Below, piece by piece: positions 8,181 to 29,416 of a stretch of DNA of 31,401 nucleotides. Source of the DNA: a virus. Both the position numbers and the translations under genes were made by a program. How positions within the stretch are numbered: position 1 is the first letter of the stretch; the number at the start of each line of letters is the position of its first letter. Location of the stretch: positions 1 through 31,401 of the IMG/VR virus record IMGVR_UViG_3300044949_001812. One strand, 5' to 3'. The notes under the pieces were generated by a model. It made no database searches, was not told the DNA's origin, and was given only the letters and a program-made list of their open reading frames with translations.

Positions 8181-8187
8181 GTCAACC
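8181..8187 (-). promoter_or_regulatory. Start-associated GGTTGAC, 16 nt before ATG 8164
   Basis: Two bases after the stop of the upstream gene. Supports the ATG at 8164. Confidence 0.55.
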
Positions 8188-8188
8188 T

Positions 8189-10126
8189 TCAGAGCACCGG
8201 CTCCATACGCACGACCGTCGCGGCCTCGAGGAACACGCTGGCTCCGCGAACGGCCGACGAGACGTAGTAATCCGCGGCGAGCGCGTTGGCGGGCACCACC
8301 TCGGTTCGCTCGATCTCGGAAATGACGTCCCCCTCGGGGTCCGGCTCGTTCAGGGCTACCGGCCGATCCAGATACCAGCCGCCGGTCGGCGCATAGGTGA
8401 AGGTCCGCGTCCATTCACTCGGGGTCCGCGTCACCGTCACCGATCCGAGGCCGTCGCGATGCGAGTGGAAGACATTCACGATTCCATTGCACGTGCCCGT
8501 CTTCACCGTGACCACCCCGATGGTGGACGAGTCCCATTCGGGGAGACCCGTGGTCGCGGAGTAGGCGCGCACCGTGGTCAGGGTGGCGGTGCCGACGCAG
8601 GGCCAGCGATCCGCCGCGTGGTTCTGCGCAGTTCGGACGGTGGTGTCCGTCTCTACCCGGAAGCGAATCGGCACTAGGTCGGTGCTTGTTCCGTCGAGCG
8701 CCGCATGGCCTGCGATCCAGAGCCGGCGGCGCTGCCGGTAGAGCACCCGGAAACCGACTTGTGGGAGTTCTGTGCCGCCTGCGTCGATCACGTCGGCGTC
8801 GTAGAGGTATCCCGTGTCGGTCATGGCCGCCAGGACGACTTCGTGGATCGGGGTTTCTCCGTCGGCGGAGATGGGTAGGTCGATGTTGCCCGCCCCGGTG
8901 CGCAGTCGGAGCTTCATCCCACTCACCCACTCCGTCTTGTCGGCCAACAATCCGCGCACGCGCGTCGCCCATACGAAGCCTTGCGCGAGGCTCAAGCCTC
9001 CGACCAGTTGGAGGTTCCCGATCCCCTGCCCGTCGCGCCGGTAGCGGAATTGCTTCTCCGCGGTGGCACTCCACCTAAGATCGCTCGGCGACCACGCGCC
9101 AAACTCGTCGTGGTAGGGGTGTGTGATTGGCTCGCTGAGGAGCGTGCTTCGGCTGGCGACGAAGTAGCCGCCAGAGCTATCCGCGACGACCAGCATCCGG
9201 TTGCGTCGCGTGACCTCCTTCCATTTCACGCGGCGCGCGTAGGGCACTGCCGTCCCGCTCAAGCGGTATCGACCCGCAACCGAGAAAGCCCACCTATCGT
9301 CGGCTCCGCCTCCGCTGGCATCTGCGCTATTGGAAGCCACGGGACCATCTCCATTCCCCAGCGGCCCGACGTTCCCGCTAGCCGCAGCCGCCTGCGCGCG
9401 GGCGTAGCAGTCCGCCCACGTGCAGGGGTCGCTCAGTGTCACCGAAAACTCCTCGTCAGCGCAGTCCGGTTCCCGAGCGGCGGTCAGTCCGTCCGCCGTG
9501 GTCCAGGTCTGGCCGTAGCCGGAGTCGCGGAACGAAAAGGGCGCGTAGCGCCCCGGAGTTGAGCTGACAAACGTCCACCCGGACAGCGCGCACCCGCTGC
9601 CGTCCTCGTATCGCTCCAGCGTGTCCCCCGTGGGCAGCGCGCCGAGCCCCCACACAGTGCCGGTCCACACCAGCCCGGGGTGCGTCTGCGCCCCGCCCGC
9701 GACCCAGTGCTCGTAGTAGGACGTGAAGGGTGGCACACGCCGGGTAGTCCCCGAGCTGGTCCACGTCTTGTAGAGCTTGTAGTCCACGGCCGGGAGCGGG
9801 GGCGGTGGGGGGTCAAAGTCGTAATTGTCCGGCGTAAACGCCTCGAATCCCCACGCTTGAAACGTAACCGTCCGACGTTGGAAAAAAGCGGCCGTGGTTT
9901 CACTGGTCCCACCCACGGCGGTCACCGCGTTCCAGGCGCCGATCTCGGGGCCGAGGAACCCGGCGTCCGGGGCTTCCTCCAAGTCCGCCCCGTAGGTATG
10001 GTTCCCTGGGCGCGTGCCTGAGTGGGCAGCGTCGAAGCTCGCGTTCCAATCCCGCAAAGGGTTCGCGGAGTTAAACCACCGCGCCCGGCTGAACGGCGCC
10101 CGGTAGTCGTTAGGCAACCGCGGCAT
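8189..10126 (-). CDS. Tail-tip / virion structural protein, 645 aa
   Basis: 645 aa, beta-rich with many Trp, Tyr and Gly-Ser turns and no recognised catalytic motif. It contains a Pro run (DPPPPPLPAVDYK, about 105-116), a Cys-containing segment (CADEEFSVTLSDPCTWADCYARA) and a helical ARAQAAAASG stretch. Its position between the tape-measure side and the fibre gene fits a distal tail or baseplate-hub protein that joins fibre to tail tip. The start has a good Shine-Dalgarno sequence (GGAGGA, six bases before ATG), unlike most genes here, and overlaps the upstream gene by 17 bp. No family is recognised. Confidence 0.75.
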   Translation of the reverse strand: MPRLPNDYRAPFSRARWFNSANPLRDWNASFDAAHSGTRPGNHTYGADLEEAPDAGFLGPEIGAWNAVTAVGGTSETTAAFFQRRTVTFQAWGFEAFTPDNYDFDPPPPPLPAVDYKLYKTWTSSGTTRRVPPFTSYYEHWVAGGAQTHPGLVWTGTVWGLGALPTGDTLERYEDGSGCALSGWTFVSSTPGRYAPFSFRDSGYGQTWTTADGLTAAREPDCADEEFSVTLSDPCTWADCYARAQAAAASGNVGPLGNGDGPVASNSADASGGGADDRWAFSVAGRYRLSGTAVPYARRVKWKEVTRRNRMLVVADSSGGYFVASRSTLLSEPITHPYHDEFGAWSPSDLRWSATAEKQFRYRRDGQGIGNLQLVGGLSLAQGFVWATRVRGLLADKTEWVSGMKLRLRTGAGNIDLPISADGETPIHEVVLAAMTDTGYLYDADVIDAGGTELPQVGFRVLYRQRRRLWIAGHAALDGTSTDLVPIRFRVETDTTVRTAQNHAADRWPCVGTATLTTVRAYSATTGLPEWDSSTIGVVTVKTGTCNGIVNVFHSHRDGLGSVTVTRTPSEWTRTFTYAPTGGWYLDRPVALNEPDPEGDVISEIERTEVVPANALAADYYVSSAVRGASVFLEAATVVRMEPVL

Positions 10127-10751
10127 CGGGTGTCCTCCACCAAGACAGGGAGCGGGTGAAGTTCAGCACTTGCCCGAGGGCGTTGGTGCTGACGTTCGCC
10201 AAGTGGGTGGCGACCACGATGGACCCGCTGCCAGTGTTTTTGATCTCCGTGATCGCGCCACCCGTCCCGGAGACGACGTATCCGAGAGGCACATACAGGA
10301 ACGCAGGCGGGGCGCCGGTCGTCTCGTCGAAAGGGGCCTGGGGATAGGCGGAGGGGTTGGTGTCGAAGACAAAGGCCAGACTCGTGCAAATCAGCGGTTG
10401 GGCTTGGTTGAGCCCGATCTTTGCCCACACGTAGACGGTGCCGGGGCCGTCGAGGTAGAAGAGCGCCGCCGTGAAGGCGCTCGGTGCGGGCACTACGCCG
10501 CCCGCCGTCCCCCAGGTCACCCAGACGGGGTTGCCGAGCTGGCCCCCGGGGCGCACCCAGCCCGGCGGCGCGGTCTTGGTCAGAGTCAGAGCGCCGGCCT
10601 CCGCGGCCGACGTCGCGCGACGCCGGGGCAGATCCGCGGTCAGGATGCGCCGGCCGCCGGGGAGGACCTGCACGCGCAGCCCCGGCCCGGCCAAGGAGAC
10701 CGAGTCGATGCCGCTTGACCGACGGATGCCCCGCTCGCGTTTAAGGCCCAT
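10110..10751 (-). CDS. Tail-associated structural protein, 213 aa
   Basis: 213 aa. The basic N-terminus (LKRERGIRRSSGID) leads into beta segments (GLRVQVLPGGRRILTADLP), a central region of alternating hydrophobics (TVYVWAKIGLNQAQPLICTSLAFVFD) and a C-terminal beta region. No family is recognised. Its ATG lies eleven bases inside the 3' end of the preceding gene and its stop overlaps the next gene's start, so it is translated as part of the tail-tip set. The likely role is a minor tail or tip protein, by context. Confidence 0.65.
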   Translation of the reverse strand: MGLKRERGIRRSSGIDSVSLAGPGLRVQVLPGGRRILTADLPRRRATSAAEAGALTLTKTAPPGWVRPGGQLGNPVWVTWGTAGGVVPAPSAFTAALFYLDGPGTVYVWAKIGLNQAQPLICTSLAFVFDTNPSAYPQAPFDETTGAPPAFLYVPLGYVVSGTGGAITEIKNTGSGSIVVATHLANVSTNALGQVLNFTRSLSWWRTPDAAVA

Positions 10752-11424
10752 AGAGAGTTGAGTTCCAGCCCGCAGGGCCGCTTAGGAGCCACTCGCGGCG
10801 GATGGTGAACGTCTTGGCCTTCTGCTCGTAGCTCAGGCTGCCGAAAAGCCAATTCCGGCCGGACGGGGTCGGCGGCGTCCCGTTGGGGCTGTCAATCTTG
10901 CCGATGCTCGCCAGCTCGCTCCCCGTCGGCCGGGTCTTGCTGACACGCGTCTCCCGCCACACGGCGCTGGCGTTCAGGTAGGCCTTCACGCCGATGAACT
11001 CGCCGGACTTGAAGCCGATGAAGAGGCCGTCCTCGTCAAACACCGCGCCCGCCGTGGTCGACCCGGGGGCGGGCGGAGGGCCGTCGAGACCCGCGAACGT
11101 AGCAAAATCGGGATTGGTCTCCAGCGGCTCCTGGCCGGTGCTGATGTCGAGCGCGTAGATTGGGTCAGGACTGCCCTGGACACCGAAGTAGTCGCCCACG
11201 ATGTCCCACGAGCCGTCGTCGCGGCGGCTGATAGTGCGCTTGTCCATCTCGAGGAAGGACCAGCGGGGGTGATTGCTGAAGATGGCGACCTGCCCCTCGG
11301 GATTCGGGCCGTGATACCACCAGACGGCGCGGGCGGCGGACATGCCGTAGCGGTCGGTGACGAGCTGCCCGCCCGTGGTGAGGACAAGTTTGGAAGAGGC
11401 GTCGTCGTGGAGCGTGAGCGGCAC
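10741..11424 (-). CDS. Tail-associated structural protein, 227 aa
   Basis: 227 aa starting at GTG, 14 nt after a GGTTGAC that forms half of a perfect 16-bp palindrome. The protein has a start typical of virion proteins (PLTLHDDASSKLVLTTGG) and reads as beta-rich with Trp motifs (AVWWYHGPNPEG, RREWLLSGPAGW). No enzyme motif is visible. It is the first cistron after the tape-measure gene in the leftward direction, but a rightward lipoprotein gene is inserted between them. The likely role is a distal tail protein, by position only. Confidence 0.65.
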   Translation of the reverse strand: MPLTLHDDASSKLVLTTGGQLVTDRYGMSAARAVWWYHGPNPEGQVAIFSNHPRWSFLEMDKRTISRRDDGSWDIVGDYFGVQGSPDPIYALDISTGQEPLETNPDFATFAGLDGPPPAPGSTTAGAVFDEDGLFIGFKSGEFIGVKAYLNASAVWRETRVSKTRPTGSELASIGKIDSPNGTPPTPSGRNWLFGSLSYEQKAKTFTIRREWLLSGPAGWNSTLYGP

Positions 11425-11430
11425 GCCGAT

Positions 11431-11446
11431 TGGTTGACGTCAACCA
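11431..11446. promoter_or_regulatory. Perfect 16-bp palindrome TGGTTGACGTCAACCA between divergent genes
   Basis: Contains GGTTGAC on both strands. The leftward copy (11439-11445) is 14 nt before the GTG of the tail gene. The rightward copy supplies a TTGACG -35-like hexamer for the lipoprotein gene. A bound dimer could control both directions. Confidence 0.6.
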
Positions 11447-11461
11447 GGGTAGCCGTAGGGT
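11434..11461 (+). promoter_or_regulatory. Candidate promoter of the lipoprotein moron
   Basis: TTGACG (11434-11439), a 16-bp spacer, then TAGGGT (11456-11461). A start six to eight bases downstream would fall at or next to the ATG at 11469, giving a nearly leaderless transcript. The -10 is poor, so this is tentative. Confidence 0.4.
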
Positions 11462-11468
11462 AGACGGC

Positions 11469-11792
11469 ATGAAGAAGCTGATGCTGGTTCTGGCGATGCT
11501 GGCCTTGGTGGGGTGCGGCGGACCGAGCGCGGAGCAGCAAGCAAAGACGACGGAGCTCGTGGCGCTCATTATGGCCACCTCCCCGAAGGAGGACTGGGCC
11601 CCGGTCCACGCCCGCATCGCTGCCGCGGAACTCCCCGCGGATATCTCGAGGCGGCTGTGGTTGCTTGCCGGGGCTCGCGAGGACAGCCCCGACATCCTCG
11701 ACGACCGCCCCTCGGCAAAAGAGCACCGAAGCCGGGTGGTCGCCGAGGCGAGCCGGCTCGCCCCCGATTTCCTCCAGCGCCCTGTCGACTAG
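11469..11792 (+). CDS. Small lipoprotein, putative moron (superinfection or surface function)
   Basis: 107 aa with a clear lipoprotein signal: MKKLMLVLAM, hydrophobic core, then LVGC with Cys16 as lipidation site. The residue after Cys is Gly, not Asp, which predicts outer-membrane sorting. The mature part is a short helical charged domain with no known motif. It is the only rightward gene inside the leftward late operon, between the tape measure and the tail-tip genes. Its stop TAG overlaps the tape-measure stop within the palindromic CTAG. An independent promoter and a reversed single gene are typical of morons expressed by a lysogen, which often exclude other phages or change the host surface. 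The frame is open upstream to a TTG at 11430, but ATG 11469 fits the signal peptide. Confidence 0.8.
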   Translation: MKKLMLVLAMLALVGCGGPSAEQQAKTTELVALIMATSPKEDWAPVHARIAAAELPADISRRLWLLAGAREDSPDILDDRPSAKEHRSRVVAEASRLAPDFLQRPVD

Positions 11793-14700
11793 TCCTCGTC
11801 GGGCAGGCGGTCCCGGATCTCGCGGAGTAGACCGTTGGCCGTCTCGATGCCCCGGGCGGACCGCTCCTGAGCGGCGAGAATGGGGTCGCGGCCCTGGAAG
11901 GTGCCGCCACCGCCGCCGATGGACGCGCGCGAGTCGGACACGATCCCCGGCATACGGCCGGCGGCCTGGGCCATGAGCGACGTGGCGAAGTCGGCATCCG
12001 CCTGGCCGGAGGTCATGCCGGCGGCCGCATACTCCTCGCGCATCTTGCGCAGGCGCTCCGCATCCTCGAGGGCCTGGGCGCCTCGGTTGTCGCCACGGGC
12101 CCGGGCATCGTCGATGGCGCGTTGCACCGCGGCGTCCTTGCGGAAGCTCTCCTGGTCGGCTTCGCGCTGGGCGGCGTTGAGCGCCTTCTGGGCGACGAGC
12201 GAGTCGGAAAGGGCCTGGTTCTTGTCCTCGATGGCGGCGGCGATCTGACGGTCGAGGTCGGCCTGTTGCTTCAGGAAACGCAGGCGCTCGACCTCGGCCT
12301 TGTTGCCGCTGGCAACCGCGGTGGCGATGTCCTGGTCGAACGCGGCGCTGGCCTCCAAGTCGGCCCGTTCACGCGCACGCAGGCGCGCGGAGAGCTCGGC
12401 ATCCTGACGCGCGTCCTGGGCCTGCTGGCCCAGGTCATTCGCACCTTCCACCCGAGCTTGCGCGTTGGCGTAGTCGCGCTCGAGGCGGATGAGGTCCTCC
12501 CGGCTCGCGCCCTCCTTACGCGCGTCCTCAAGCCGCTGCTTGGCGGCGACACGCTCGTCCGTGGAGCGGAGGTTGATCTGGCGGATCTCCTCGTCCCGCG
12601 CCGCCGCGCGGGCCTTCTCCTCCGCGTCAATGGCGGCAAGGTCAGCCTGCTGACGAGCCTTGAAGGCGGCCTTCTGGCGGGCAATCTGGCGGGCAATCTC
12701 GGCGCCGCCCCTTCCCGCCCGGCCCCGACTGACGTTGGCCTTGAACGTCCGCCCGCGCACCGCGGCTCGACGAGAGTCGAAGGTCGCCTGGTCGAAGCCC
12801 GCTTCGTTACGGAGTTGCTCACGGCGGGCCGCGTCGGGGCCGGCGCCGGCGCTGCGCGCGGCGTCCTTCGAGGCCTGGGCCACGGCGGCTCGCGCCTCCA
12901 GTTCGGCGGCGCGTTGCTCCTGCATCCGAACGCGCGCGTCCGGGTCGGTGGTGGCATTGAGCCGGCGCTGGTAATCGCGCTCCTCGGCATCGCGGCGCTC
13001 CGCCTGGTCCTGCCGGAGGTCCTCAATCTCCTTCGGGGTGAGCCCAAGCTGGGACCTGTCTCGAGTGGCTTCGCTCGTGAGCTCCTTCCGCAAATCCCGG
13101 AGATAAGTCACGGTCTCCTCGTTCCGCCCAATCTGCTCCGCCGACTTGTCCTCACCTGCGGCGACCTCGGCGTTGAACTTCGCGATGGCCTCGGCCGTCT
13201 CCAGGTATTCGGCGCGGAGCTTCTGCATACGGGCCTGCCAGTCGTCGAGGTTCTTCACTCCATCGCGGCCCTTCTCGAGCTCCTTGCGCATGGCGGCGAT
13301 GTTGGCGGCCGTCTGCGCGGCGACCCGGGCAGTCTCACGGGCGGCGGCAGTCCAACGGTAATAGGCCATCGCGGCAAGGGTGAGCGCCCCGATCAGGGCG
13401 GTCCACGGGTTGGTGAAGAGGGCGACGGTGGCGGCCTTGAGCTGACCGAGCACGAAGCCCAGGGCGACGCGGACCAAGCCGAGGCCCTTGGCGGCGACGA
13501 CCGTGCTGACGCCGAGCGCGTAGTTGGCCACGGCGGCGAGGCCGGTCGCACCCGCGGCGGCCTTCATGCCGGCGGCGTGCAGGATCGACATGGTGGCGAG
13601 CAGGCCGTTCTTCGCCGCAGCGAGCCCGGCGCTGGCGGCCTCGAGAAACTGGAGACGGGTCAGGCTGGCAGTAACCGCCGAGAGCGACGCTTTGGCTTTG
13701 GTGAGCTGCTCGACCGCGGTCGCCGACTTGCTCGCGGCCGAGGCGGCGCCGAGCGTGGAGAGGAGGAACCCCTTCATCTCGGTGATGCCCTTGACGAAGC
13801 TGATCGCGGTCATCGCGGAGAGCACGGCGAGTGTGATCTTCACCGCCTCCCAGACGCCAAGCAGGGCCTTCTGCATACCCGGGAGGGCGAGAGTGTTCTC
13901 GACGATGCCGGTCTTGAAGTCGTGGACGAGCCCGCTGACGGCCGCCATGTCGCGACCGACCTGGGCGAGCACGGGGATCAGGTTGCGCGTGGCCTCGGTC
14001 ATCACACGGATCGAGTTGGACTGGGCCTCGGTGAAGGGGGCGGCGAAGCCCTGCTCCATGAGGCGGCGGGACTCCTCGAGCTTCGCGTTCAGCGACTCCA
14101 AGGTCTCCATCTCCTTCTTCATGCCGCCCTCGGTGCGGGCGAGGACCTTCTCGACCTCCGCCCACTTGTCGGAGAAGGACGCTCCGGTCAGTTCGAGATG
14201 TTGCAGCTTTTCCGCCAGCTCGTCGGTGACGACGCCCGTGCCCTGAAACTGGAAGAGCACGCGGTCGATGGAGCGCCCCCGCGCGAGCGCGTCGTAGAGC
14301 CGGCCGACGACGTGGGCCATGTCTTGGACCTGGTTGCCCGTGGCCGCAGCGGCGTCGCCGATCATCTCCATCGCCCGGGCACCGGCGAAGGCGCCTTTCG
14401 TGAGCCGGAGCAGTTGCAGGTTGGCGTCGGCGACGGCGTCGAACTTGAAAGGGGAGTTCGCGGTGAAGGCGTAGAGCTCCTGGATGCGCTTCTTCGCCAG
14501 CTCGGCGCTGCGGAGCAGGGTCTCGAACTTGCCCTCAATGCCCTGGAGCTGGCTGATCGACTTGAGGCCGCGCTCCAGGATGCCCGACTCCCGGACGATC
14601 TTCCGCATCGTGAGTAGGATGCCCGCGAGGCCACCGGCGAAAAGGGCGGTCGGCCCCAGGAGCTTCTCCATGAAGGCGTCTTTCAGGACGTTGGCGGCGA

Positions 14701-14815: not shown

Positions 14816-14816
14816 G

Positions 14817-15578
14817 TCAGAGTGGTTCGGCGGGCGGGGGCACGGGGCCTTGGTTGGTGAGACGATTGAGGTTGGCCGCGGCCTTGGCCCTCAGCTCGTC
14901 CCGGGCGAGGCGCTCGGCGGTCTCGGGCGTCATGCGCGGGCGGGTGCGGACCAACTCGTCGGCACGGGCCTTGATCGCGGCCTCCTGTTCCTTGCGGTGG
15001 GCCTCGGCGCGCTGCTCGTCCAGAGGCGTCCAGACGCGAAGGTCGCCACCCTTGATCCGGTTCAGGATCGCCGCGCGCCAACGGAGCTGCCCGAGGGGCA
15101 TCGTCCAGACGGTCTCCGGCGACAGCTTGAACCCGTGCTCGATCATGCCGGCGAGCTCGAGGTTGTCGTCCAGGTCGCTGCCGGCGCGGTCGCAAGTGCC
15201 TTTGTGGTGGTTGGACCAGAAGCGCGGGCCAGTGGCGAAGTCCCGCATGTAGACCGCGAACTTGGCCGTCTCCATGCGAAGATCGTAGCGTTGGTAGCGC
15301 AGCGACCACGCGAGCCGGGCAAAGAGGCGGCGCGGGACGGCAAGATCGGGGCCGTAGTGGGCCGGGGTCCAGGGCGTGCTCGCGCACCGGACGGCGGCCC
15401 AGAGGTCGTGCAAAGTGGGCTCGCGGTGCCCGAGCAGGAACGGGGACTGGATGAGCTCGAGGTTGAACTGCGTCCAGAGCGAAAACGGCAAGAGCCGTTC
15501 CCCAAGGACCGTGTGCGGTCGGTTGAGGAACGGCTCTACGAAACGCTCGTCGTGGACGAACTGAACGGCCTCGGTCAT
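14817..15578 (-). CDS. Protein in tail-assembly-chaperone position
   Basis: 253 aa between tail tube and tape measure, where lambda-like phages encode the G/GT tail-assembly chaperones. It is a single ORF. I see no second overlapping frame or slippery heptamer followed by an extension, so the usual frameshift is not evident. The N-terminal two thirds are aromatic-rich (FSLWTQFNLELIQSPFLLG, LRYQRYDLRMETAKFAVYMRDF). The C-terminal third is a charged helix (EQRAEAHRKEQEAAIKARADEL) ending in a Pro-rich tail. GGTTGAC lies 14 nt before the ATG. The chaperone role is inferred from position. Confidence 0.65.
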   Translation of the reverse strand: MTEAVQFVHDERFVEPFLNRPHTVLGERLLPFSLWTQFNLELIQSPFLLGHREPTLHDLWAAVRCASTPWTPAHYGPDLAVPRRLFARLAWSLRYQRYDLRMETAKFAVYMRDFATGPRFWSNHHKGTCDRAGSDLDDNLELAGMIEHGFKLSPETVWTMPLGQLRWRAAILNRIKGGDLRVWTPLDEQRAEAHRKEQEAAIKARADELVRTRPRMTPETAERLARDELRAKAAANLNRLTNQGPVPPPAEPL

Positions 15579-15592
15579 GCCGAGGCGGAGGC

Positions 15593-15599
15593 GTCAACC
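15593..15599 (-). promoter_or_regulatory. Start-associated GGTTGAC, 14 nt before ATG 15578
   Basis: Lies just after the stop of the tail-tube gene. Same motif and spacing as upstream of the portal and two other genes. Confidence 0.55.
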
Positions 15600-15603
15600 C
15601 CTA

Positions 15604-16013: not shown

Positions 16014-16020
16014 GTCAACC
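16014..16020 (-). promoter_or_regulatory. Start-associated GGTTGAC, 17 nt before ATG 15996
   Basis: Adjacent to the imperfect palindrome copy at 16022. The two elements lie side by side, as they do upstream of the fibre gene. Confidence 0.55.
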
Positions 16021-16021
16021 A

Positions 16022-17343: not shown

Positions 17344-17374
17344 AAAGCCCCGAGTCAACCAGTGACTCGGGGCT
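17344..17374 (-). terminator. Hairpin after major capsid gene, partial terminator or attenuator
   Basis: Perfect 12-bp stem (AGCCCCGAGTCA with TGACTCGGGGCT, 17346-17374), 5-base loop, then only TTTC on the minus strand. The short U-tract suggests partial termination or transcript protection. That would raise capsid mRNA over the downstream tail genes. The second arm contains the GGTTGAC motif of the next gene (17354-17360). Confidence 0.65.
17354..17360 (-). promoter_or_regulatory. Start-associated GGTTGAC, 17 nt before ATG 17336
   Basis: Partly in the loop and partly in the stem of the post-capsid hairpin, so its exposure in RNA would depend on folding. Confidence 0.55.
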
Positions 17375-17419: not shown

Positions 17420-18376
17420 TTACGCGAACTGCGTGGCGATCAGGGTGCCGCTGCGGGCCGAGACGATTTTCTCGTCGGTGTTCGAGCGGACGCGGATCAC
17501 GTCGGAGCGGATCTGCTCGTTGCGGTAGGTCTCCGTGACGAAGAGCTCGCCGCCGGTGTCCCCGGTCCAGATCAGGGTGCGGCCCGCGCCGCCGGCGGCG
17601 AAGTCGCCGCCCTGGACGTTGCCGATCCAGATGTAGTCGGGGGTCCAGATGCGGCTGAGGGAGGCGGTCTGGCCGTCCTGGGCGGTGTCGACCACGGCGT
17701 CGCCGATGCGGATGTTCGGGATCTCGAACTTCTCGGCGAACATCTGCGGGGTGATCTGCTGGCTGCCGCCGAGTTGGCCGAAGAAGAACTTGGCGAGCCG
17801 GTCGGAACGGCGGATGCGGTTCCAGGACTGGCGGCCGATGACGATGGTGTTGCACTCCTCGCCGCGGGCGCGGATGCGGTCGGTCGCGGCGATGATGTCC
17901 GCCGGGGCGTCCATCGTGGCGAGGTTGGCCTCGGTGTAGGCCGTGGTGGAGTTCACCGAGTCGAACGTGGACGTGTTGAAGAGGATCGCCTTGACGCGCT
18001 GCTCGTGGGCGAGACGAACGCGACGGAGCAGGAGCTTCGACGCCTGGGCCTCGATCGAGAAAGCGTGAGCGACGTCGGCGGCGACGACGTCGTCGATCTT
18101 CTGCTCGATGCCGCGGTCGACGGTCAGGTAGCTGTCCTTCGCCCAGGTCCAGTCGACCTCGGGGTAGCTACCCTTCGGGCCGCGCTTGAGGTCGCCGCCA
18201 GACTTGAGGAGCTTGGTGGCGTCGACCGTGAGCTTGCGGTATTCACCCGAAGAACGGTCGACGGTGAAGGCCGGGAGCAGGTCGAGGCCGATGAAGTAGC
18301 GGTCCGCGGCGAGCGCCTCCTCCAGGACGGAGTTCAGCTCGGGGCGGATTTCGGCGGCGGTGTTTTGGTAAGCCAT
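17420..18376 (-). CDS. Major capsid protein
   Basis: 318 aa. The N-terminal arm (MAYQNTAAEIRPELNSVLEEALAA) and long helix-strand core include features of HK97-fold major capsid proteins: a basic segment (LKRGPKGSYPEVDWTWAKDSYL), a helical spine region (DVAHAFSIEAQASKLLLRRVRLAHEQRVKAIL) and a nucleotide-fold-like A-domain (DIIAATDRIRARGEECNTIVIGRQSWNRI). It follows the protease/scaffold and decoration genes, in lambda order C-Nu3-D-E. It is flanked downstream by a stable hairpin, as often seen for capsid genes. Confidence 0.88.
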   Translation of the reverse strand: MAYQNTAAEIRPELNSVLEEALAADRYFIGLDLLPAFTVDRSSGEYRKLTVDATKLLKSGGDLKRGPKGSYPEVDWTWAKDSYLTVDRGIEQKIDDVVAADVAHAFSIEAQASKLLLRRVRLAHEQRVKAILFNTSTFDSVNSTTAYTEANLATMDAPADIIAATDRIRARGEECNTIVIGRQSWNRIRRSDRLAKFFFGQLGGSQQITPQMFAEKFEIPNIRIGDAVVDTAQDGQTASLSRIWTPDYIWIGNVQGGDFAAGGAGRTLIWTGDTGGELFVTETYRNEQIRSDVIRVRSNTDEKIVSARSGTLIATQFA

Positions 18377-20197: not shown

Positions 20198-20235
20198 AAA
20201 AAGCCCGTCAACCCTTGGGAGGGCGGACGGGCTTT
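20198..20235 (-). terminator. Rho-independent terminator before the protease/scaffold gene
   Basis: On the minus strand: GAAAGCCCGTC, a 16-base loop, then GACGGGCTTTTTC. The 10-bp stem is followed by five T. Both arms are intergenic, between the 224-aa gene and the protease gene. It should reduce read-through from the portal block into the protease and capsid genes unless an antitermination system is present. Confidence 0.75.
20207..20213 (-). promoter_or_regulatory. Start-associated GGTTGAC, 17 nt before ATG 20189
   Basis: Overlaps the 3' arm of the terminator hairpin. Confidence 0.55.
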
Positions 20236-20935: not shown

Positions 20936-21070
20936 TTAGGGTTTTGGATTTGTCAACCTCGCCTTGCGGCGGAGCGCGGCCTTGGCGACGAGGTGGCAGA
21001 AGGCCCAGCCGCCGACGACAATCGCGACGAGGGACCAGAAGAGGATGCCGGTGAGGGTGAAGAAGATCAT
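20936..21070 (-). CDS. 44-aa single-span membrane protein in head block
   Basis: Starts at an ATG overlapping the stop of the 445-aa gene (ATGA) and ends one base before the next gene. The product is a hydrophobic helix (IFFTLTGILFWSLVAIVVGGWAF) followed by a basic tail (AKAALRRKARL). This would place the C-terminus inside the cytoplasm or in contact with DNA. The role is unknown. It sits between two larger proteins that also carry hydrophobic segments, so the three may act together. The GGTTGAC of the next gene lies in its last codons. Confidence 0.65.
   Translation of the reverse strand: MIFFTLTGILFWSLVAIVVGGWAFCHLVAKAALRRKARLTNPKP
20952..20958 (-). promoter_or_regulatory. Start-associated GGTTGAC, 17 nt before ATG 20934
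   Basis: Located within the 3' coding end of the 44-aa gene (codes for part of RLT). Confidence 0.55.
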
Positions 21071-22404: not shown

Positions 22405-24185
22405 TCTTGCTTCGGCTTGGAGTCAACCGGCGCCCCGTCCCCGGACTCGCCCGGCGGCTTGGGCTCGGGCGGGAGATTGGCTTCGATGGCGACGGGCTGG
22501 GGTTCGGGCACGATCGCCTCGGCGACCGCAGGATCGAGCTCGTAGATGCCGACGAGCAGGTTGATGACAGCGTCGCGGGGGAGGATGCCGCCGGCCACCT
22601 TCTCCAGGACGTCCGCCAGGATGCGGAGGGCGCCGTCGCCGATGTCGGCGGTGGTGGGCTGGGGCGGCTCGACCGCGGCAGCGGCGGCGGCGAGCTGGTT
22701 GGATGCGTCGGGGAATCGGCCGAGCGCGACCATCTCGACGGGCACGCCGGCCTGGGCGCACTTGTCGCGGACGATGATGGCCTCTTTGACCATCTGGTCG
22801 ATGAGGTCCTCGAAGTCGTAGCCCTCTTCGCCGGCGATTTCGGACGCGGACTTGAGGCCGGCCTGGAGAAGCTCGAGGTTCGCGGTGGTGTCGTAGCCGG
22901 TGTCGGCGGTGAGGTGCTTGCCGAACTGCCAGCGGCCGTTGTCGAAGTTGATGCCCTTGGGCGGAGCGGGGAGCTCGCCGAGGGCGATGGCGTTGGAGAG
23001 GACGGCGCGCTTGATCTTGTTCAGGACGCTCGTGACCAGGATCTCCTGCCAACGCTCGAAGAGGCGCTGGAGCTGCATGGCCTCGAGGCGCACGGTCGCG
23101 CCGCCGAAGCGGCTCATGTCGAAGAAGCCGAAGGGCACGTTGAGGCCCATCGCGATGTCGCGGAGGGCGGCCTCGATGTAGGCGGCGAAGGCGCCGGCGG
23201 CGCGGGCGCCAGGGTTGAAGGGGGTGACGCCCTCGTTCGATTTGAGGCGGAGGAGCTTGTTGGGCTGGACCTGCTCGGTGGGGTTGCCGTTGGCGTCCTT
23301 GGAGACGCCGTCCCAGAGGCCGGCGCTACCCGCGCCCGCCTTGGCGAGCGGGTCGGTGACGGTGATGACGCCCGCGATGGACGCGGCCCACTTGGCAGCG
23401 CCGCGCTCGAAGGCGAACATCTCGTAGAGGTCGCGGGCCGGGCCGACGATAGGCGCGAGCCAGGAGACGCTGCGGTATTCGTCGGTGCGGAGCGGCTTGG
23501 AAAGGAGGAAGAAGTTCTGCGCGTCGGCGGTGACCTCGAACTCGTAGCGCGTGGTCTTCCGGTCGCGTTTGTAGATGTCGTAGCCGACGGGCTGGCCGAA
23601 GGCGTTGAGCCGGATGCCCTGGACGTAGTCGTCCTCGGTCTGCGTCGCGACGCGGTTCGGGTCGCCGATGCGGTCGGCCTCGATGCACTGGATCTGGAGC
23701 TTGGGGCCGTTGCGGACCAAGTAGAAGCCGAAGTCGCCGTCGCGGAGGGCGGAGCGGAAGCCGAGCTCGACGAGCATGCGGAAGTTCCGGCGGCCGGTGA
23801 TGTCGGCGGTGTTCTCGCACCAGTTGTGCCAGTAGGTCTCGATCAGGGAGTCGTAGGCCGGGTCGCCGGACTGAGACTGGTAGAGGACCTGGGCGGTGAC
23901 GTATTGGGAGATGCGGTCGAGAACACAGCGGACGATGGGCATGTTCCGCTCGAGGTCGCGGGCCTCCCAGATGAGCTTCAGGCGATCCTGCGCCATCTTG
24001 GCGGTCTCGCTGCTGGCGTTCTTCGTCATGCCACCACTACCGCCGCGGGCCATGCCGGGGTTGGCGGCGTCGTAGCCGAAGAGGGTGAGTCGGTCCTTCG
24101 CGATGGCACGCTGAAGGGCGTAGGTCGGGGCGATGGCCGCGATGGCGCGGTCCAGGAAGTTCGGTTTACGGGTGTCGGCGGCCAC
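22401..24185 (-). CDS. Portal protein (lambda gpB-like)
   Basis: 594 aa, lambda-type portal: the N-terminal region leads to the conserved core (IVRCVLDRISQYVTA, YWHNWCENTADITGRRNF, LVELGFRSALRDGDFGFYLV) and a long helical C-terminal part (AGLKSASEIAGEEGYDFE) with a Pro/Ala-rich, acidic tail. Dodecamers form the portal vertex through which DNA is packaged by terminase and ejected. The start is GTG, 14 nt after GGTTGAC. The gene lies between a gpW-like connector region and the block of internal head proteins. Confidence 0.93.
   Translation of the reverse strand: MAADTRKPNFLDRAIAAIAPTYALQRAIAKDRLTLFGYDAANPGMARGGSGGMTKNASSETAKMAQDRLKLIWEARDLERNMPIVRCVLDRISQYVTAQVLYQSQSGDPAYDSLIETYWHNWCENTADITGRRNFRMLVELGFRSALRDGDFGFYLVRNGPKLQIQCIEADRIGDPNRVATQTEDDYVQGIRLNAFGQPVGYDIYKRDRKTTRYEFEVTADAQNFFLLSKPLRTDEYRSVSWLAPIVGPARDLYEMFAFERGAAKWAASIAGVITVTDPLAKAGAGSAGLWDGVSKDANGNPTEQVQPNKLLRLKSNEGVTPFNPGARAAGAFAAYIEAALRDIAMGLNVPFGFFDMSRFGGATVRLEAMQLQRLFERWQEILVTSVLNKIKRAVLSNAIALGELPAPPKGINFDNGRWQFGKHLTADTGYDTTANLELLQAGLKSASEIAGEEGYDFEDLIDQMVKEAIIVRDKCAQAGVPVEMVALGRFPDASNQLAAAAAAVEPPQPTTADIGDGALRILADVLEKVAGGILPRDAVINLLVGIYELDPAVAEAIVPEPQPVAIEANLPPEPKPPGESGDGAPVDSKPKQE
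22422..22428 (-). promoter_or_regulatory. Start-associated GGTTGAC, 17 nt before ATG 22404
   Basis: Located in the last codons of the portal gene. The motif is kept even though the sequence must also encode Val-Asp. Confidence 0.55.
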
Positions 24186-24199
24186 GGCTCTGTGGCGCC

Positions 24200-24206
24200 G
24201 TCAACC
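24200..24206 (-). promoter_or_regulatory. Start-associated GGTTGAC, 14 nt before GTG 24185
   Basis: Immediately follows the TGA of the upstream gene. Supports the GTG start of the portal. Confidence 0.55.
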
Positions 24207-24494
24207 TCAGAGCACGGACTTGCTGCCCTGGCACTTCCACTTCCGGCGAGAGAGGTTGTTCGGGCTGTTCGGATCGCTGCGCCAGTCGCCCTTGATTTTC
24301 GCGCTGCGCGCGCAATAAGAGTCCCCCTTGCTAGTCCCAGGACGGATGCGGTCGCCGCCGTCGGCCGCCTTGCCGGCCTGGCCGTAGCGGACGGTGCGCG
24401 TGCGCCCCGTCTCGGGGTTCTTCACGACTTTGGTGAAGCGTTTCCCGGTCGAAAACTCGATGAGGGCGAGGCGGGCTTCGATCTTCGGGTTCAC
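24207..24494 (-). CDS. Small Cys-containing basic protein with ARLxxIEF motif
   Basis: 95 aa from a GTG that overlaps the previous stop (GTGA). The N-terminus (MNPKIEARLALIEFSTGKRF) carries the ARLVEF-like motif seen in the 445-aa and 224-aa proteins. The remainder is basic: VKNPETGRTRTVRYG, then GDRIRPGTSKGDSYCARS and NSPNNLSRRKWKC. I recall the CARS-to-RRKWKC pattern from small proteins of other tailed phages but cannot name the family with certainty. Two Cys about 30 residues apart could form a small metal or disulfide unit. Its position before the portal suggests a head component. Confidence 0.65.
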   Translation of the reverse strand: MNPKIEARLALIEFSTGKRFTKVVKNPETGRTRTVRYGQAGKAADGGDRIRPGTSKGDSYCARSAKIKGDWRSDPNSPNNLSRRKWKCQGSKSVL

Positions 24495-24754
24495 CAGTTA
24501 CCTCCGATGCGGACGCCGCTGAAGTCGGGGATCAGGGGCTTGTTGCCGACGCCGTTGCTCGGGCTGCGCTCGTTCTTGACCTGGTAGGCCGCCTCGAGGC
24601 GGTCGCGGATCTCCGCGGTCGAGCGCGAGTAGGAACGGTTGCCCTCGGTCTGGGCGTTGAAGGTGTTACGGCTCTGCCCCTCCAGCCACGTGATCTCGGC
24701 GTCGAGCTTGGCGTCGTCGTAGTTGCGGTAGACCGAATACCATTCCGGGGACAT
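24491..24754 (-). CDS. gpW-like head-tail connector
   Basis: 87 aa starting at ATG 24754, chosen because GGTTGAC lies 14 nt upstream; an in-frame GTG sits at 24766. The helix-loop-helix pattern (YDDAKLDAEITWLEGQSRNTF, then SRSTAEIRDRLEAAYQVKNE) and the TEGNRSYSRSTAEI hairpin match the gpW family of small connector proteins that plug the portal. The location between terminase and portal is that of lambda W. Sequence similarity in this family is low, so the call leans on pattern and position. Confidence 0.65.
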   Translation of the reverse strand: MSPEWYSVYRNYDDAKLDAEITWLEGQSRNTFNAQTEGNRSYSRSTAEIRDRLEAAYQVKNERSPSNGVGNKPLIPDFSGVRIGGNW

Positions 24755-24768
24755 GCCTCGGCGCACGA

Positions 24769-24775
24769 GTCAACC
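24769..24775 (-). promoter_or_regulatory. Start-associated GGTTGAC, 14 nt before ATG 24754
   Basis: The TGA of the preceding 66-aa gene is inside this heptamer. Confidence 0.55.
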
Positions 24776-24970
24776 CGCGCCAACCCTCGCCAGCGTGAAG
24801 GTCTTCTTGAACGCCTTCAAATCGCCGCGCCAGGTCATGCCCGCGCCGCCACCCGTGCCAACCTCGCTCCAAAGGACCATGTCCTGCGGATTGACCTCGA
24901 CGACGCGGAAGACGTGGCCGGCCAGCGGGCCCGACTGAGACACGGCTTTGAAACGACGGTCCCAGTTCAT
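24770..24970 (-). CDS. Small hypothetical protein, 66 aa
   Basis: ATG overlaps the previous stop (ATGA). The product has beta-strand spacing: FKAVSQSGPLAGHVFRVVEV, QDMVLWSEVGTGGG, MTWRGDLKAFKKTFTLARV. It is a small beta-barrel-like protein with no recognised family. The TGA lies inside GGTTGAC of the next gene. Its position between regulators and connector gives no firm function. Confidence 0.6.
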   Translation of the reverse strand: MNWDRRFKAVSQSGPLAGHVFRVVEVNPQDMVLWSEVGTGGGAGMTWRGDLKAFKKTFTLARVGAG

Positions 24971-25608
24971 GCGAGGTCGCGGAAGATGGGGGCAAGAATC
25001 TTGCGGAGCTCGACGCGCATGACCGGGGTCATGCCCGAGCGCGCGGCATTGTAGTCGCGCGCGAACTGGCGCGTGGTCTCGAAGATCGAGGTGGTGCCGG
25101 CGTCGGCCCGCTCGGGGGCGTGCTCGGCGTGGTCGCGGCGGAGCCTGTCGCGGAGCTGGCGGACGCTGACCCCGCCCTGGCTCACGTAGTCGACCCAGGC
25201 CTCGTGCTCATCGGGGTCGGCGCGGCCAACGATCTCGACGGCGTGGCTGAAGGTGACGTGGTCCCGACGTCGGGAAATGGGGAGCCGACGGCAGACGGTG
25301 GCGGCATTGCGGAGGGTCTGCTCGGCGAGGCCGGTCTTCTCGGATATGTCGGCGTAGAGCTCGGACGGCTCACGGTCGCCCCAGTGGCTCTTGCGGAAGC
25401 GGTCGTTGCCGTAGACCAGCCAATCACCGATGGCCCAGGTCGCCATGCGGTTCACGTCGACGACGGCGCGGCCGACGCGCATCCAGTCGTCGTAGCTGAG
25501 GCCGTCAGGGATGACGAGGCCGTTGCGTTCGGGGATCACGCCCTCCGGGAGCGGCGCGATCGAGGCGGAGGGGGCTGCGGTTGGTGAGAGCGTATTGGCG
25601 GCTTGCAT
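24967..25608 (-). CDS. LmbU-like DNA-binding regulator
   Basis: 213 aa from ATG 25608; an in-frame GTG at 25668 would add 20 residues. The core (LSYDDWMRVGRAVVDVNRMATWAIGDWL, TGLAEQTLRNAATVCRRLPISRR, VTFSHAVEIVGRADPDEHEAWV, VSVRQLRDRLR) follows the consensus I remember for LmbU-type regulators and related ParB-like HTH proteins (WxxGDWLxYG, TLRNxAxVxRR, SFxHxxEV, LRxRLR). It probably binds DNA as a transcription factor. Its first 105 bp overlap the 3' end of the sigma-like gene. It is encoded within the packaging cluster, so it may control late genes. A perfect palindrome copy lies inside it. Confidence 0.65.
   Translation of the reverse strand: MQAANTLSPTAAPSASIAPLPEGVIPERNGLVIPDGLSYDDWMRVGRAVVDVNRMATWAIGDWLVYGNDRFRKSHWGDREPSELYADISEKTGLAEQTLRNAATVCRRLPISRRRDHVTFSHAVEIVGRADPDEHEAWVDYVSQGGVSVRQLRDRLRRDHAEHAPERADAGTTSIFETTRQFARDYNAARSGMTPVMRVELRKILAPIFRDLA
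25262..25275. promoter_or_regulatory. Dispersed palindrome copy 6, perfect (intragenic)
   Basis: TCCCGACGTCGGGA within the LmbU-like gene, at ISRRRD. Confidence 0.5.
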
Positions 25609-25933
25609 GGGCGGATTTGTTGTTGAACGACAGGGGGAGGTGGAGGTCGGCGCGGATCTTGCCGACACGCTTAGACACGGCGGCTTTGGTGATGCCGTGT
25701 CGGGCGCCTACGGTGGTCATGGTCTCGCCCTCCAGTTCGGCATCGCCGAGGGCGAGGTAGAGGCAGTCGACCGTCAGGCGGGCGCGAGGCTGGGAGCGGA
25801 CGTAACTCACGAGCCTGCGAGCGAACTCGAGCGACTCGGCGGCGTGATTGGCGGTGGGCTGGGGCGGCTCCTCATCGACTTCGTCGTAAGGAAACTCGGT
25901 GGCCAGCTCCCGGGAGTTCTCATGCAGCGGCAT
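25505..25933 (-). CDS. Sigma-70 region 4-like helix-turn-helix protein
   Basis: 142 aa. The acidic N-terminus leads into a helical region with a clear HTH: LTVDCLYLALGDAELEGETM, then TTVGARHGITKAAVSKRVGKI. This matches sigma-70 region 4-type or phage late regulators, with GITKAAVSKRVGKIR as the recognition helix area. The C-terminal tail (about 100-142) is low in structure and overlaps the LmbU-like gene. Just downstream of TerL, it might act in late transcription or in packaging-site recognition. No upstream motif or Shine-Dalgarno sequence is seen. Confidence 0.7.
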   Translation of the reverse strand: MPLHENSRELATEFPYDEVDEEPPQPTANHAAESLEFARRLVSYVRSQPRARLTVDCLYLALGDAELEGETMTTVGARHGITKAAVSKRVGKIRADLHLPLSFNNKSAHASRQYALTNRSPLRLDRAAPGGRDPRTQRPRHP

Positions 25934-25967
25934 CGGGACGATAGACCGCTGAGAACGAGACTCAGTG

Positions 25968-28901
25968 TCAAGAGCGATTGTTAGGAGTTGTTATCTCCAT
26001 GAGGCCGGTGGCGCAGGCGGCGGCGAGGGCCATTCGGAGGCAGTTGCCGGCGATGCTCGGGAATCCCTTGCGGCGGACGATCAAAGTGCCGTTGGGGACC
26101 GTCGCGCAGTAGACCGGGCCGGAGTAGGGCACCTTCTCGACGAGGAACTTGTTCTTGCAGTCGCGGAGGAGGACGTGAGGGATGTTGCGAACTGTTACCC
26201 GGTAGTGGGGTAGAGCCACGCCGGAGCGCCCAGCGATGTTCCAGACGCCCTCGGGCATCGCGACCGTGCGCGAGGTGAGGCCAACCTTCAGAAGCAGTTC
26301 GGCCGTGTCGTCCGCGAGCTGCTTGCTCGTGGTGGAGAGAAGGCGCTTCTTGCCCAAGTGGCCGTCCCCGAGAAACAGGCCCGCGAGATAGGCAGAGATG
26401 ACGCGGGGGGTGGCATCTTTGATCCACTGCGGAACTCGCTTGTTCTCGGCCAGATGACCGCACTCGGAGACGAGCGCGGTGAGCTGCTGGTTTCCGGCGT
26501 AATAGGTGCCGCGCTTATTGCGACTGAACTTCCACGGGAGCCGGCTGAGGGTTTCGCGCCACAGCGCGCCATCGCGGACGGTGCCGACCTTCTGAGACAC
26601 GTCGGTCTGGCTCGACCCGTCCCGACGTCGGTATAGGCAGCCCTCCGCGGTGAACCAGCCGAGGAATCGGGCCAACACCTCGCGATCCACTTCCGTCGCT
26701 TTCATGCAGCGGGTGGCGGGTATTTGAACTGGCCCAGTGAGGCCATCGCCCTCCCACACGGACGCCGTGACCTTGATGCGGTCCCAAAGGGTGAGCTCAT
26801 CGGCGCGCTTGATTGAGTCGACGAAGCGTTGGCGGAGCGTGCCGAACTCGTCGCGGAAATGCCGACGCTCCTCGACGACCATGCGGTGGTCGGGCGTGAC
26901 CGCGAACGACATCGCGCGGTGCTTGCACTCGAGCAGGTGACCGTCGTGGTGCTTAGCGATGAGGGCCTCGGGGCGGTGGTATTCGATCTGGTCGCGGTCC
27001 AGGTTCACCGTCGCGAAAAGGCTGTCGTGGCTCACCTCGGTCCACTTCTTCCAGCCGTCGCGGGTAAGCACCTCAGTCTCGGGGTCAAAACACGAGCCCC
27101 AGTGATCGTCGGGGCGCTTCTGCACCCACTCGGTCTCGATCACGCCGTTGGCCTTCTCGTTGTCCCGGCGCTCGTAGGCGGTGAGCTGCATCTTGAACTC
27201 GTGGAGGTCATCGCCGTTGCCATTGATCTCAAACCGCGGGCCGACGCCGCGCATGCAGGCCTCCGCGCGGTCGAGCATGGAGGACTTGCTGAAGAGGAGC
27301 TGACGGAGCGGGGCGGCGCGGCCCGCCTGCTCGCTGCCGAGGTAGGGGTCGACGAAGGACCAGGTGTAGGGCAGGCGCAGGGTCTTGCCGTCGCCGAGCG
27401 CGAGGGTGTAGTGCGGGGCCTTGTCGCCCTTCATCGCTTTCCAGGCGTAGTTGCCGTCGGGGAGCTGGCCGCTCTCGAGGATGTAGCGGTAGACCTCCGC
27501 GGCCCAGTGGCCGCTGTCGATGCCGACGTTGGAAGCGGGGACGTGGTAGGTGGTCTGGAGGGCGCGCAGCTCCTCGACGCTCCAGGCCTTGCCCCAGGCG
27601 ACGGCGCGGTGGGCGCCGCCCTGGGCAAAGTCGAAGACGCCCCAGTAGAAGTGCCGACCGCCCTTGCCCTGGACGTCGACCATCATAAAGCGCCGCGCGG
27701 GCACGAAGGGCGGCAGGGTGGCGTCGTTGAAGTCGACGACGCGGTCGTCGATGTAGCTGTCGGATTTGCCGTAGCGCATCCGGTCGGTCCAGGGCTGACC
27801 GAGCTTCTCGGTGATGAAGGCCTTCAGCGGCTCGAAGTCGCCGTAGTCGTTGGCGATCTCGGCCTGGACGAACTGCTGCACGAGGGCCGACCATTTGATC
27901 CAGTAGGGTAGGAGGGCGTTCCAGGTGTAGCTGCGGCGCTCGGCGGGGGCGCTGGGGTTGTGCGGCACCCACTGACCGCGGTCGGCGAGCGTGCGGCGGA
28001 TGTCCGGGCGGTCTTGGTGGAGGTGGCCGCAGCGGGGGCAGACGTAACGGACGTGCGGGGCGAGCTTGTCGAAGTCCCACTTGCCGTCGGGAGTCTTGGC
28101 GCCGAGCACGTCCGACCACTTCACGCAGCGGGGGCGGCCGGTCGCGTCGGTCTCGGTCGGGTGCGCGGCCTTCATGTTCGCCCAGTCGAGCGGGCCGGAG
28201 TAGTCGCAGGCCTCGTTCAGGCAGGGGACGTGGTAGTGCCGCTGGTCGCCGTTCAGAAACTCGTTGTGGACGGTGTCGCGCTCCTTCTCCGGTGTGGTCA
28301 GGATGACGATGCGGCTGTTCCAGAAGGTGGTGACGCGGGCCTTGGCCATCGGCAGCGCCCAGGCGGGCCAGTTGCGCACCTCGTCGCAGAGGAGAAATCG
28401 GCGGGGGCGGCTCTGGAGCTTCGCCTTGGCGTTGGCGCCGACCGCCTCCAGCATCATCGTCGGGAAGAGGATCTCAGTCGTCTTCGCCAAGGTGCGGTCG
28501 TCGGGGATGGAGGAGGCGACGGGCGGGCACGACCGCAGAGCGGGCATGAGGCGCTCGTTGCAGAACTTCAGGGCCTCGTCCTCCGACGACGTGATCCACA
28601 TGGTCGGGGACGGGTCCTCGGCCACGATCCAGGAGAGGAGGGCCAGCATGGTCTCCGTCTTCGAGGACTGGGCGGAGCAGAGGACGGTGATCTGGCGGAT
28701 CGAGTTGTCGGCGAAGGTCTCCATGACCTCGCGCACCCACGGGGAGGTTTCGCTGCGCCACTTGCCGCCGGCGGAGAGGGCCGAGACGGGCGGGACATAG
28801 TAGTCCTCGGCCCATTGCCACGGCGGACGGCGGTCGGCGGGCTTCCAAGCCAACGTGGCGGCCTTGGCGACCGGGTCGTAGGCGGGGGCAGGGGTGCTCA
28901 C
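25968..28901 (-). CDS. terL: Terminase large subunit (GpA family) with in-frame intein
   Basis: 977-aa precursor. The N-terminal ATPase has a Walker A-like SAQSSKTE (76-83) and Walker B LLCDE (170-174). Zinc-type Cys pairs are at C227/C232 and C288/C291. The nuclease domain has MVDVQGKGG (D409) and VGIDSGHWAAE (D462). Residues 604-953 are an intein (separate entry). The spliced protein would be 627 aa, the usual length for lambda gpA-type terminases. The packaging motor cuts concatemers and pumps DNA into the head through the portal. The start GTG overlaps the small-subunit stop (GTGA). In the C-terminal motif, where relatives usually have an acidic residue before Cys, Ser603 stands at the splice junction (HWGS-CLRM). 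Confidence 0.93.
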   Translation of the reverse strand: MSTPAPAYDPVAKAATLAWKPADRRPPWQWAEDYYVPPVSALSAGGKWRSETSPWVREVMETFADNSIRQITVLCSAQSSKTETMLALLSWIVAEDPSPTMWITSSEDEALKFCNERLMPALRSCPPVASSIPDDRTLAKTTEILFPTMMLEAVGANAKAKLQSRPRRFLLCDEVRNWPAWALPMAKARVTTFWNSRIVILTTPEKERDTVHNEFLNGDQRHYHVPCLNEACDYSGPLDWANMKAAHPTETDATGRPRCVKWSDVLGAKTPDGKWDFDKLAPHVRYVCPRCGHLHQDRPDIRRTLADRGQWVPHNPSAPAERRSYTWNALLPYWIKWSALVQQFVQAEIANDYGDFEPLKAFITEKLGQPWTDRMRYGKSDSYIDDRVVDFNDATLPPFVPARRFMMVDVQGKGGRHFYWGVFDFAQGGAHRAVAWGKAWSVEELRALQTTYHVPASNVGIDSGHWAAEVYRYILESGQLPDGNYAWKAMKGDKAPHYTLALGDGKTLRLPYTWSFVDPYLGSEQAGRAAPLRQLLFSKSSMLDRAEACMRGVGPRFEINGNGDDLHEFKMQLTAYERRDNEKANGVIETEWVQKRPDDHWGSCFDPETEVLTRDGWKKWTEVSHDSLFATVNLDRDQIEYHRPEALIAKHHDGHLLECKHRAMSFAVTPDHRMVVEERRHFRDEFGTLRQRFVDSIKRADELTLWDRIKVTASVWEGDGLTGPVQIPATRCMKATEVDREVLARFLGWFTAEGCLYRRRDGSSQTDVSQKVGTVRDGALWRETLSRLPWKFSRNKRGTYYAGNQQLTALVSECGHLAENKRVPQWIKDATPRVISAYLAGLFLGDGHLGKKRLLSTTSKQLADDTAELLLKVGLTSRTVAMPEGVWNIAGRSGVALPHYRVTVRNIPHVLLRDCKNKFLVEKVPYSGPVYCATVPNGTLIVRRKGFPSIAGNCLRMALAAACATGLMEITTPNNRS
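26043..27092 (-). mobile_element. Intein with LAGLIDADG homing endonuclease in terL
   Basis: 350 residues (604-953 of the precursor). The N-splice block begins with Cys604 (CFDPETEVLTRDGW). Block B has TPDH with His672. Two dodecapeptide endonuclease motifs are FLGWFTAEG (746-754) and LAGLFLGDG (839-847). The C-terminal block reads VYCATVPNGTLIVRRKGFPS, with Asn953 and then Cys954 as +1 residue. The penultimate residue is Gly, not the usual His. The endonuclease looks intact, so homing is plausible. One palindrome copy (26620) falls inside it. Confidence 0.9.
26620..26633. promoter_or_regulatory. Dispersed palindrome copy 7 (intein)
   Basis: TCCCGACGTCGGTA, 13 of 14 matches, in the intein coding sequence. 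Confidence 0.4.
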
Positions 28902-29392
28902 AGGGGGCTCGTGGAGAGGGCTTGGAGGGCCTCGTCGATCTCACGGCGGAGGCGGGTCTCGATGTCGACCTCGCGGGTGAGGCCAATGAGCTGCGGGGCC
29001 ATGCGCGCGGGGATGGCCTGAAGCTGCTGGCGGGCCTTCACGACCATCTTGCCCACCGACTGCTCGATCTCGGTGTTGAGGGTGTAGTCCTTGCGGCGGA
29101 CCTGGAGCTCGAACTGGAGCTTCTCGTTCTGGAGTTTCAGCTTCTCCATCTCCAGCTTCGACTTGTCGGAGCCGCTACCGACGTTCGGGTCGATCAGGCT
29201 GCCGAAGTTGGCGTTGATGAAGGCCTGCCACTCGGCAATCTCGTAGCGGCCGTCCTTCGACCGGCCGGGGTTCCCTTCCAGCTTCAGGGCTTGCTGAATG
29301 ATTTTCCGGTCACGGGGAGGGGCAAGGTAGCCCCCGAGCTCGGTTTGGCTTTTGGCGAACCGGGGGACGGTTCCAGGCTTGCGGCGTGGCAT
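28898..29392 (-). CDS. terS: Terminase small subunit (Nu1-like)
   Basis: 164 aa. The N-terminal winged-HTH-like region (SQTELGGYLAPPRDRKIIQQAL, then YEIAEWQAFI) recognises the packaging site. A long coiled coil follows (KLEMEKLKLQNEKLQFELQV, then RRKDYTLNTEIEQSVGKMV), which makes the oligomer, and the C-terminal IETRLRREIDEALQAL helix probably contacts TerL. It is the first gene of the late operon and overlaps terL by four bases. GGTTGAC is 17 nt before the ATG. Confidence 0.85.
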   Translation of the reverse strand: MPRRKPGTVPRFAKSQTELGGYLAPPRDRKIIQQALKLEGNPGRSKDGRYEIAEWQAFINANFGSLIDPNVGSGSDKSKLEMEKLKLQNEKLQFELQVRRKDYTLNTEIEQSVGKMVVKARQQLQAIPARMAPQLIGLTREVDIETRLRREIDEALQALSTSPL

Positions 29393-29409
29393 TTGGAAAT
29401 GCCGGAACC

Positions 29410-29416
29410 GTCAACC
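29410..29416 (-). promoter_or_regulatory. Start-associated GGTTGAC, 17 nt before ATG 29392
   Basis: First copy of the motif in the late operon, upstream of terS. Confidence 0.55.

Follow-up and report, generated by a model that had tools for sequence, protein, structure and literature searches.

Many late genes of a group of uncultured phages are preceded by a short oriented element, (G)TTGAC(A), which ends 14-18 nt before the start codon, is confined to the late (virion) module and co-occurs with a gene encoding an HTH protein, including in phages with unrelated virion genes. The explanation that we consider best, with a probability of about 0.5, is that the element is a late-regulon DNA site read by the HTH protein, with transcription starting just upstream of the late start codons.

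The window analysed here is positions 1-31,401 of the virus record IMGVR_UViG_3300044949_001812 and holds the late module and the integrase of a phage; a 66.3-kb contig (G001), 99.99-100% identical across the stretches shared with the window, supplies more of the same phage. Genes were called with a simple codon-bias caller written for this analysis. The late genes run leftward (small and large terminase, portal, capsid, tape measure and others), and genes for DNA polymerase A, a helicase, a ligase and an AAA protein run in the opposite direction. The large terminase (25968-28901, minus strand) carries an insert from about residue 602, after its GpA ATPase and nuclease domains, with a LAGLIDADG domain at residues 834-882; the insert appears to be an intein. 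In G006, a phage whose large terminase is 65% identical to that of the window phage, Hint and LAGLIDADG domains are found in a helicase/DUF2800 protein instead. Upstream of the late module, a 180-bp stretch (29456-29634) is 82% identical to positions 676-854 of L021, near the other end of G001, and is possibly a regulatory region. At 31116-31401, an 81-bp unit is repeated 3.6 times in tandem with 98% matches; the array runs off the end of the window and reads as an open repeat frame (KDSGITHAILSGGDAFPSASSCSGSAE).

A start-anchored element in the late module

The heptamer GGTTGAC occurs 12 times in the window, compared with 3.84 ± 1.93 times in 100 dinucleotide shuffles of the same sequence (largest 8). 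Eleven of the 12 copies are on the minus strand, each lying 14, 16 or 17 nt upstream of the start of a late gene, and all of the distances given in the original prediction agreed with our recount. The spacing is 17 nt before the small terminase gene (motif at 29410-29416; start 29392), which is the first gene of the late module, before a 460-aa gene adjoining the capsid gene (20207-20213; start 20189) and before the genes starting at 22404 (22422-22428), 20934 (20952-20958), 17336 (17354-17360) and 15996 (16014-16020). It is 14 nt before the portal gene (24200-24206; GTG at 24185), the gene starting at 15578 (15593-15599) and an 87-aa gene (24769-24775; start 24754) whose orthologues carry the motif in six of six phages, and 16 nt before the gene starting at 8164 (8181-8187). 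As had been noted, the copy at 22422-22428 lies within the 3' end of the portal gene. The remaining minus-strand copy (11439-11445), 14 nt before a GTG at 11424, is one half of a palindrome, GGTTGACGTCAACC (11432-11445), and the sole plus-strand copy (11432-11438) is its other half. We also found the GATTGAC variant that had been placed 15 nt before the start at 2963 (2979-2985, minus strand). The claim that no other leftward copy exists holds for the exact heptamer. GATTGAC has three more leftward copies (779, 6452 and 10891), none of them at starts.

GGTTGAC is one form of a wider element. We took relatives of the window phage by capsid (about 40% identity) or terminase (28-47%) and counted k-mers, unsupervised, over the 32 nt upstream of genes; many of these relatives are partial metagenome contigs, and related phages are not independent samples. 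Upstream of genes in the related uncultured phages (GC 40-66%), few k-mers were as strongly enriched as GTTGAC and TTGACA, with up to 50 occurrences against 1.2 expected, and one or the other was a top-ranking k-mer in most sets of capsid- or terminase-related phages. Motif discovery on upstream regions, as proposed with the original prediction, recovered the element, and it recurs at homologous starts in related phages, so that the prediction survived this part of its own refuting condition. Its flanks differ by lineage, with GGTTGAC in the group of the window phage, GTTGAC in the capsid kin, and GTTGACA and TTGACA in others; TTGAC is the core and the leading GG is local. In the literature, the matches listed for the GGTTGAC heptamer were all unrelated.

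In the relatives, the end of the motif lies 14, 15, 16, 17 or 18 nt upstream of the start codon and seldom at any other distance. Orthologues of one gene in eight phages have spacings of 17, 15, 16, 16, 14, 15, 17 and 17 nt. The family of the 460-aa gene, called a protease by position only, has the motif in all eight phages, at differing distances. At 14 or 17 nt the TGA inside the motif is in frame with the start, an arrangement that had been pointed out from the window and that occurs at 10 of its 11 sites but is not conserved in the relatives. Because the spacing varies among orthologues and is not kept in register, the frame in which the TGA falls is of no consequence and its agreement with the start coincidental, and we rejected recoding and the proposed coupling element on the same grounds. 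The motif is also rare at overlapping gene pairs, which argues against coupling: within late blocks it precedes 10-11% of overlapping or abutting genes, compared with 35-73% of genes that follow a gap.

The motif is limited to the late module in six phages (G001, G004, G005, G006, G008 and G009). Outside that module, G001 has no start-associated copy. In G006 the motif occurs about ten times, in most cases 14-17 nt upstream of a late gene, and the numerous early genes of this phage all lack it. A regulator site is the best supported of the roles originally suggested for the motif, although it serves the late module only and is not phage-wide, as had been envisaged.

Co-occurrence with an HTH gene

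After the large terminase, the window encodes a 142-aa, sigma-region-4-like HTH protein (25505-25933, minus strand) that is a candidate reader of the motif. The protein is 69% identical in G006, and its HTH domain is doubled in two of the capsid kin (G004 and G005). Three of 22 family members match Sigma70_r4 (best E 7.8e-6), the window member not being among them. In an AlphaFold2 model the core has pLDDT above 85; the structures that match this model best are sigma domains, at modest Z scores of 6-6.7. Sigma region 4 canonically binds TTGAC, which makes the pairing of this type of protein with this site suggestive.

By iterative profile search, the HTH family was found in every motif-bearing lineage, including the capsid kin. 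Phages P8625, RcRhea and Epona and three 38%-terminase records (G011, G012 and G015) show no motif peak, and the HTH gene was not found in them, in a test limited by fragmentary records. One exception is G003, a motif phage with no HTH gene in its 42.6-kb record, which may be incomplete. Scanning viral contigs with the HTH alignment alone yielded 80 loci, 75 of which were examined. The site was present in 66 of the 75, with a few loci lacking it, and for 56 of the 75 the stretch covered showed no detectable relative of the terminase, the portal or the capsid encoded in the window. Distances pooled over the HTH loci peaked at 14-16 nt with a shoulder to 19, and this peak was kept when the 56 loci with unrelated virion genes were taken alone. 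Most sites, 155 in all, followed the HTH gene on its own strand, compared with 31 that preceded it and 30 on the opposite strand, and in G022 the motif genes start directly after the HTH gene. As read from these genomes, the link between HTH protein and motif is an association. At tblastn sensitivity, the HTH protein was found in no GenBank phage and its gene in no cultured phage; use of the protein is thus not known for any member of that collection.

The HTH gene is itself preceded by TTGAC, at 33, 32 and 30 nt in three phages. The window copy (25967-25971, minus strand), 33 nt before the start at 25933, is a possible -35 element of the gene's own promoter, with no convincing -10 element accompanying it. 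In L071, around 11781-11800, TTGAC lies both about 30 and about 17 nt before the likely start of the HTH gene, an arrangement that could reflect autoregulation. A second conserved gene (24967-25668, minus strand) adjoins the HTH gene, is 50% identical in G006 and sits beside it in many relatives; its product is a possible partner of the HTH protein.

DNA site or mRNA element

The motif might instead act in mRNA, as originally suggested, with GUUGAC at 14-18 nt from the start taking over the role of a Shine-Dalgarno (SD) sequence or an A-rich leader by recruiting the ribosome via a phage protein or a ribosomal one. SD-like sequences are indeed scarce (5-8%), the five-nucleotide spacing window around the start codon resembles a ribosome constraint, and many sites are 13-30 nt past the upstream stop codon. 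Genes with the motif are A-poor before the start (A 0.15 versus 0.35 in the capsid-kin set) and lack the A-rich leader of their neighbours, as if the motif stood in for it.

Several observations count against such an element. Six sites are immediately preceded, or overlapped, by the end of a strong intrinsic terminator, and at three of these the heptamer, if transcribed, would be paired in a hairpin of -29 to -35 kcal/mol. Among them, the site at 20207-20213 lies within a terminator-like hairpin with a T-run (-29 kcal/mol) and that at 17354-17360 within one that follows the capsid gene (-34.9 kcal/mol). This argument uses only individual overlapping cases, and terminators were not enriched in general before motif genes of the capsid-kin set (4/66 versus 14/265). 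The highly expressed major capsid gene (17420-18376, minus strand) has the motif in none of eight phages, two of these called starts being visibly internal to the gene; an A/C-rich stretch precedes it in the window and in most orthologues. Early genes are likewise without the motif, and the conserved protein associated with it is of the HTH type, typical of DNA binding. Together, the hairpin-buried sites, the lack of A-rich leaders at motif genes, the absence of the motif from capsid genes and its preference for genes that follow a gap favour a DNA site that heads a transcription unit whose RNA would begin somewhere between this site and the start codon, over an mRNA element, and we regard a role in translation initiation as unlikely.

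Some other features of these leaders may be recorded here. In G001 and G006, both SD-poor, genes without the motif are enriched just upstream in TAACAA/AACAAA-type words, which resemble the A-rich leaders of other SD-poor bacteria. A mini-hairpin between motif and start was rejected as weak and largely a product of composition, and comparing G before the start when anchored on the motif or on the start codon gave a mixed result.

A repressor site is a quite improbable reading. The HTH protein would here occupy many oriented sites and block late genes in lysogeny, in the manner of stoperators, in keeping with the asymmetry of the sites, their orientation with transcription, their frequent position in short intergenic gaps and the presence of an integrase in the window phage. 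In profile searches, the HTH protein also weakly matched KorA-type repressors (E 7e-4) and a repressor that binds stoperators (7r6r, E 0.08). A roadblock, however, needs no fixed distance to the start, yet 14-18 nt is kept even after long gaps; moreover, the sites are limited to the late module, and the HTH gene has the late genes as neighbours rather than the integrase.

A signal read by the host polymerase or a ribosome component and used by host genes too, the HTH protein being incidental, would suit the presence of the motif across many phages of wide GC content and, if the host belonged to that group, the scarcity of SD sequences reported for some Verrucomicrobia (PMC10783764), but we rejected such host-wide use as very improbable, given that early genes of the same phages lack the motif, that sister phages without the HTH gene lack it too, and that, in a comparison that covered phages and a plasmid, neither an Opitutaceae TAV5 plasmid nor P8625 showed the peak, P8625 having TTGACA 31 nt before four starts instead.

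Promoter geometry and known systems

If the element is a late-regulon DNA site, as we favour, (G)TTGAC(A) would mark those genes of the late module that open a transcription unit. The HTH protein, whose gene lies before or near the front of that module in most loci, would read the site and bring RNA polymerase to initiate no more than ~15 nt further on, producing late mRNAs with very short leaders, and genes inside a unit, such as capsid, would have A/C-rich leaders or overlap instead of the motif. We infer this binding, the activation and the positions of transcript starts from the patterns described above.

A more specific form of this proposal, to which we give somewhat less than even odds, is that the HTH protein is a stand-alone sigma-region-4-like factor acting on a one-box promoter, in which the -35 core TTGAC would lie ~15-20 nt, rather than 35, before the transcript start and the late mRNAs would be nearly leaderless. 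In a canonical sigma-70 promoter, the -35 TTGACA and the -10 box are about 17 bp apart and transcription starts 7 nt further on, and sigma region 4 bound to the polymerase flap places TTGAC about 31 nt before a leaderless start. The late motif, at 14-18 nt, is about 15 nt closer than this flap-bound geometry, which counts against the reading that we favour, as do the modest structural matches of the HTH protein and its similarity to KorA-type repressors. In the cultured Verrucomicrobia phage P8625 (L147, KP792622), TTGAC lies exactly 31 nt before the starts at 5448, 10772, 15594 and 22442, a position that would be expected of leaderless sigma-70 promoters. For the late motif, we found no enriched -10 or second box upstream (to 45 nt, none clear), in the spacer or in the first codons. 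We accordingly rejected a canonical sigma-70 promoter, including one with its -10 box inside the gene, and agree with the earlier argument that the motif is too close to the start for a normal -35 box. The geometry is not that of any known promoter. The HTH protein may occupy another place on the polymerase, it may itself act as a separate activator or repressor, or the signal may after all be read in RNA. No phage RNA polymerase was seen among the early proteins scanned, in a scan that was not exhaustive.

The T4 late promoter is a -10-type box, unlike the box described here, which resembles a -35 core. Common to both, on our proposal, would be phage proteins that mimic sigma domains and steer host RNA polymerase to late genes. 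In T4 late transcription (gp55/gp33), gp33 is described as a sigma-4 mimic; its sequence does not discernibly resemble those of sigma proteins, and it depends on both gp55 and the sliding clamp (PMC2988020). The Start-Associated Sequence (SAS) of cluster K mycobacteriophages is likewise a short, asymmetric, oriented repeat with many copies per genome at a near-fixed distance before start codons, but it is a 13-mer, GGGATAGGAGCCC, 3-7 bp from the start codon and mainly at non-structural genes (PMC3203893), whereas the element here has a TTGAC core at 14-18 nt and is found in the structural module only. ORF-adjacent promoters of Deinococcus-Thermus also have an element that keeps a short, constant distance to the start codon, but that element is a normal -10 box, used cell-wide to make leaderless mRNA (PMC12340547); the TTGAC described here is further upstream and serves phage late genes only. 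Cluster A mycobacteriophage stoperators share with our sites their number, asymmetry and orientation and a phage HTH protein, a binder there and a candidate here, but are 13-mers bound by the immunity repressor and spread over the genome (PMC9283540), with no fixed distance to starts, in contrast to the start-anchored, late-module sites of this phage group. Each of the four systems fails or leaves open a defining feature, and there is a real chance that the element represents phage late-gene control with a new promoter geometry.

If this is correct, the late-gene control of a large uncultured phage group would have been found from sequence alone, as a short DNA site paired with its likely reader protein and a promoter geometry that standard annotation would miss. 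The motif would also aid the annotation of SD-poor phages, as a marker of late modules and of genuine start codons. Collectively, our results suggest a form of late-gene activation in phages that has not been described before.
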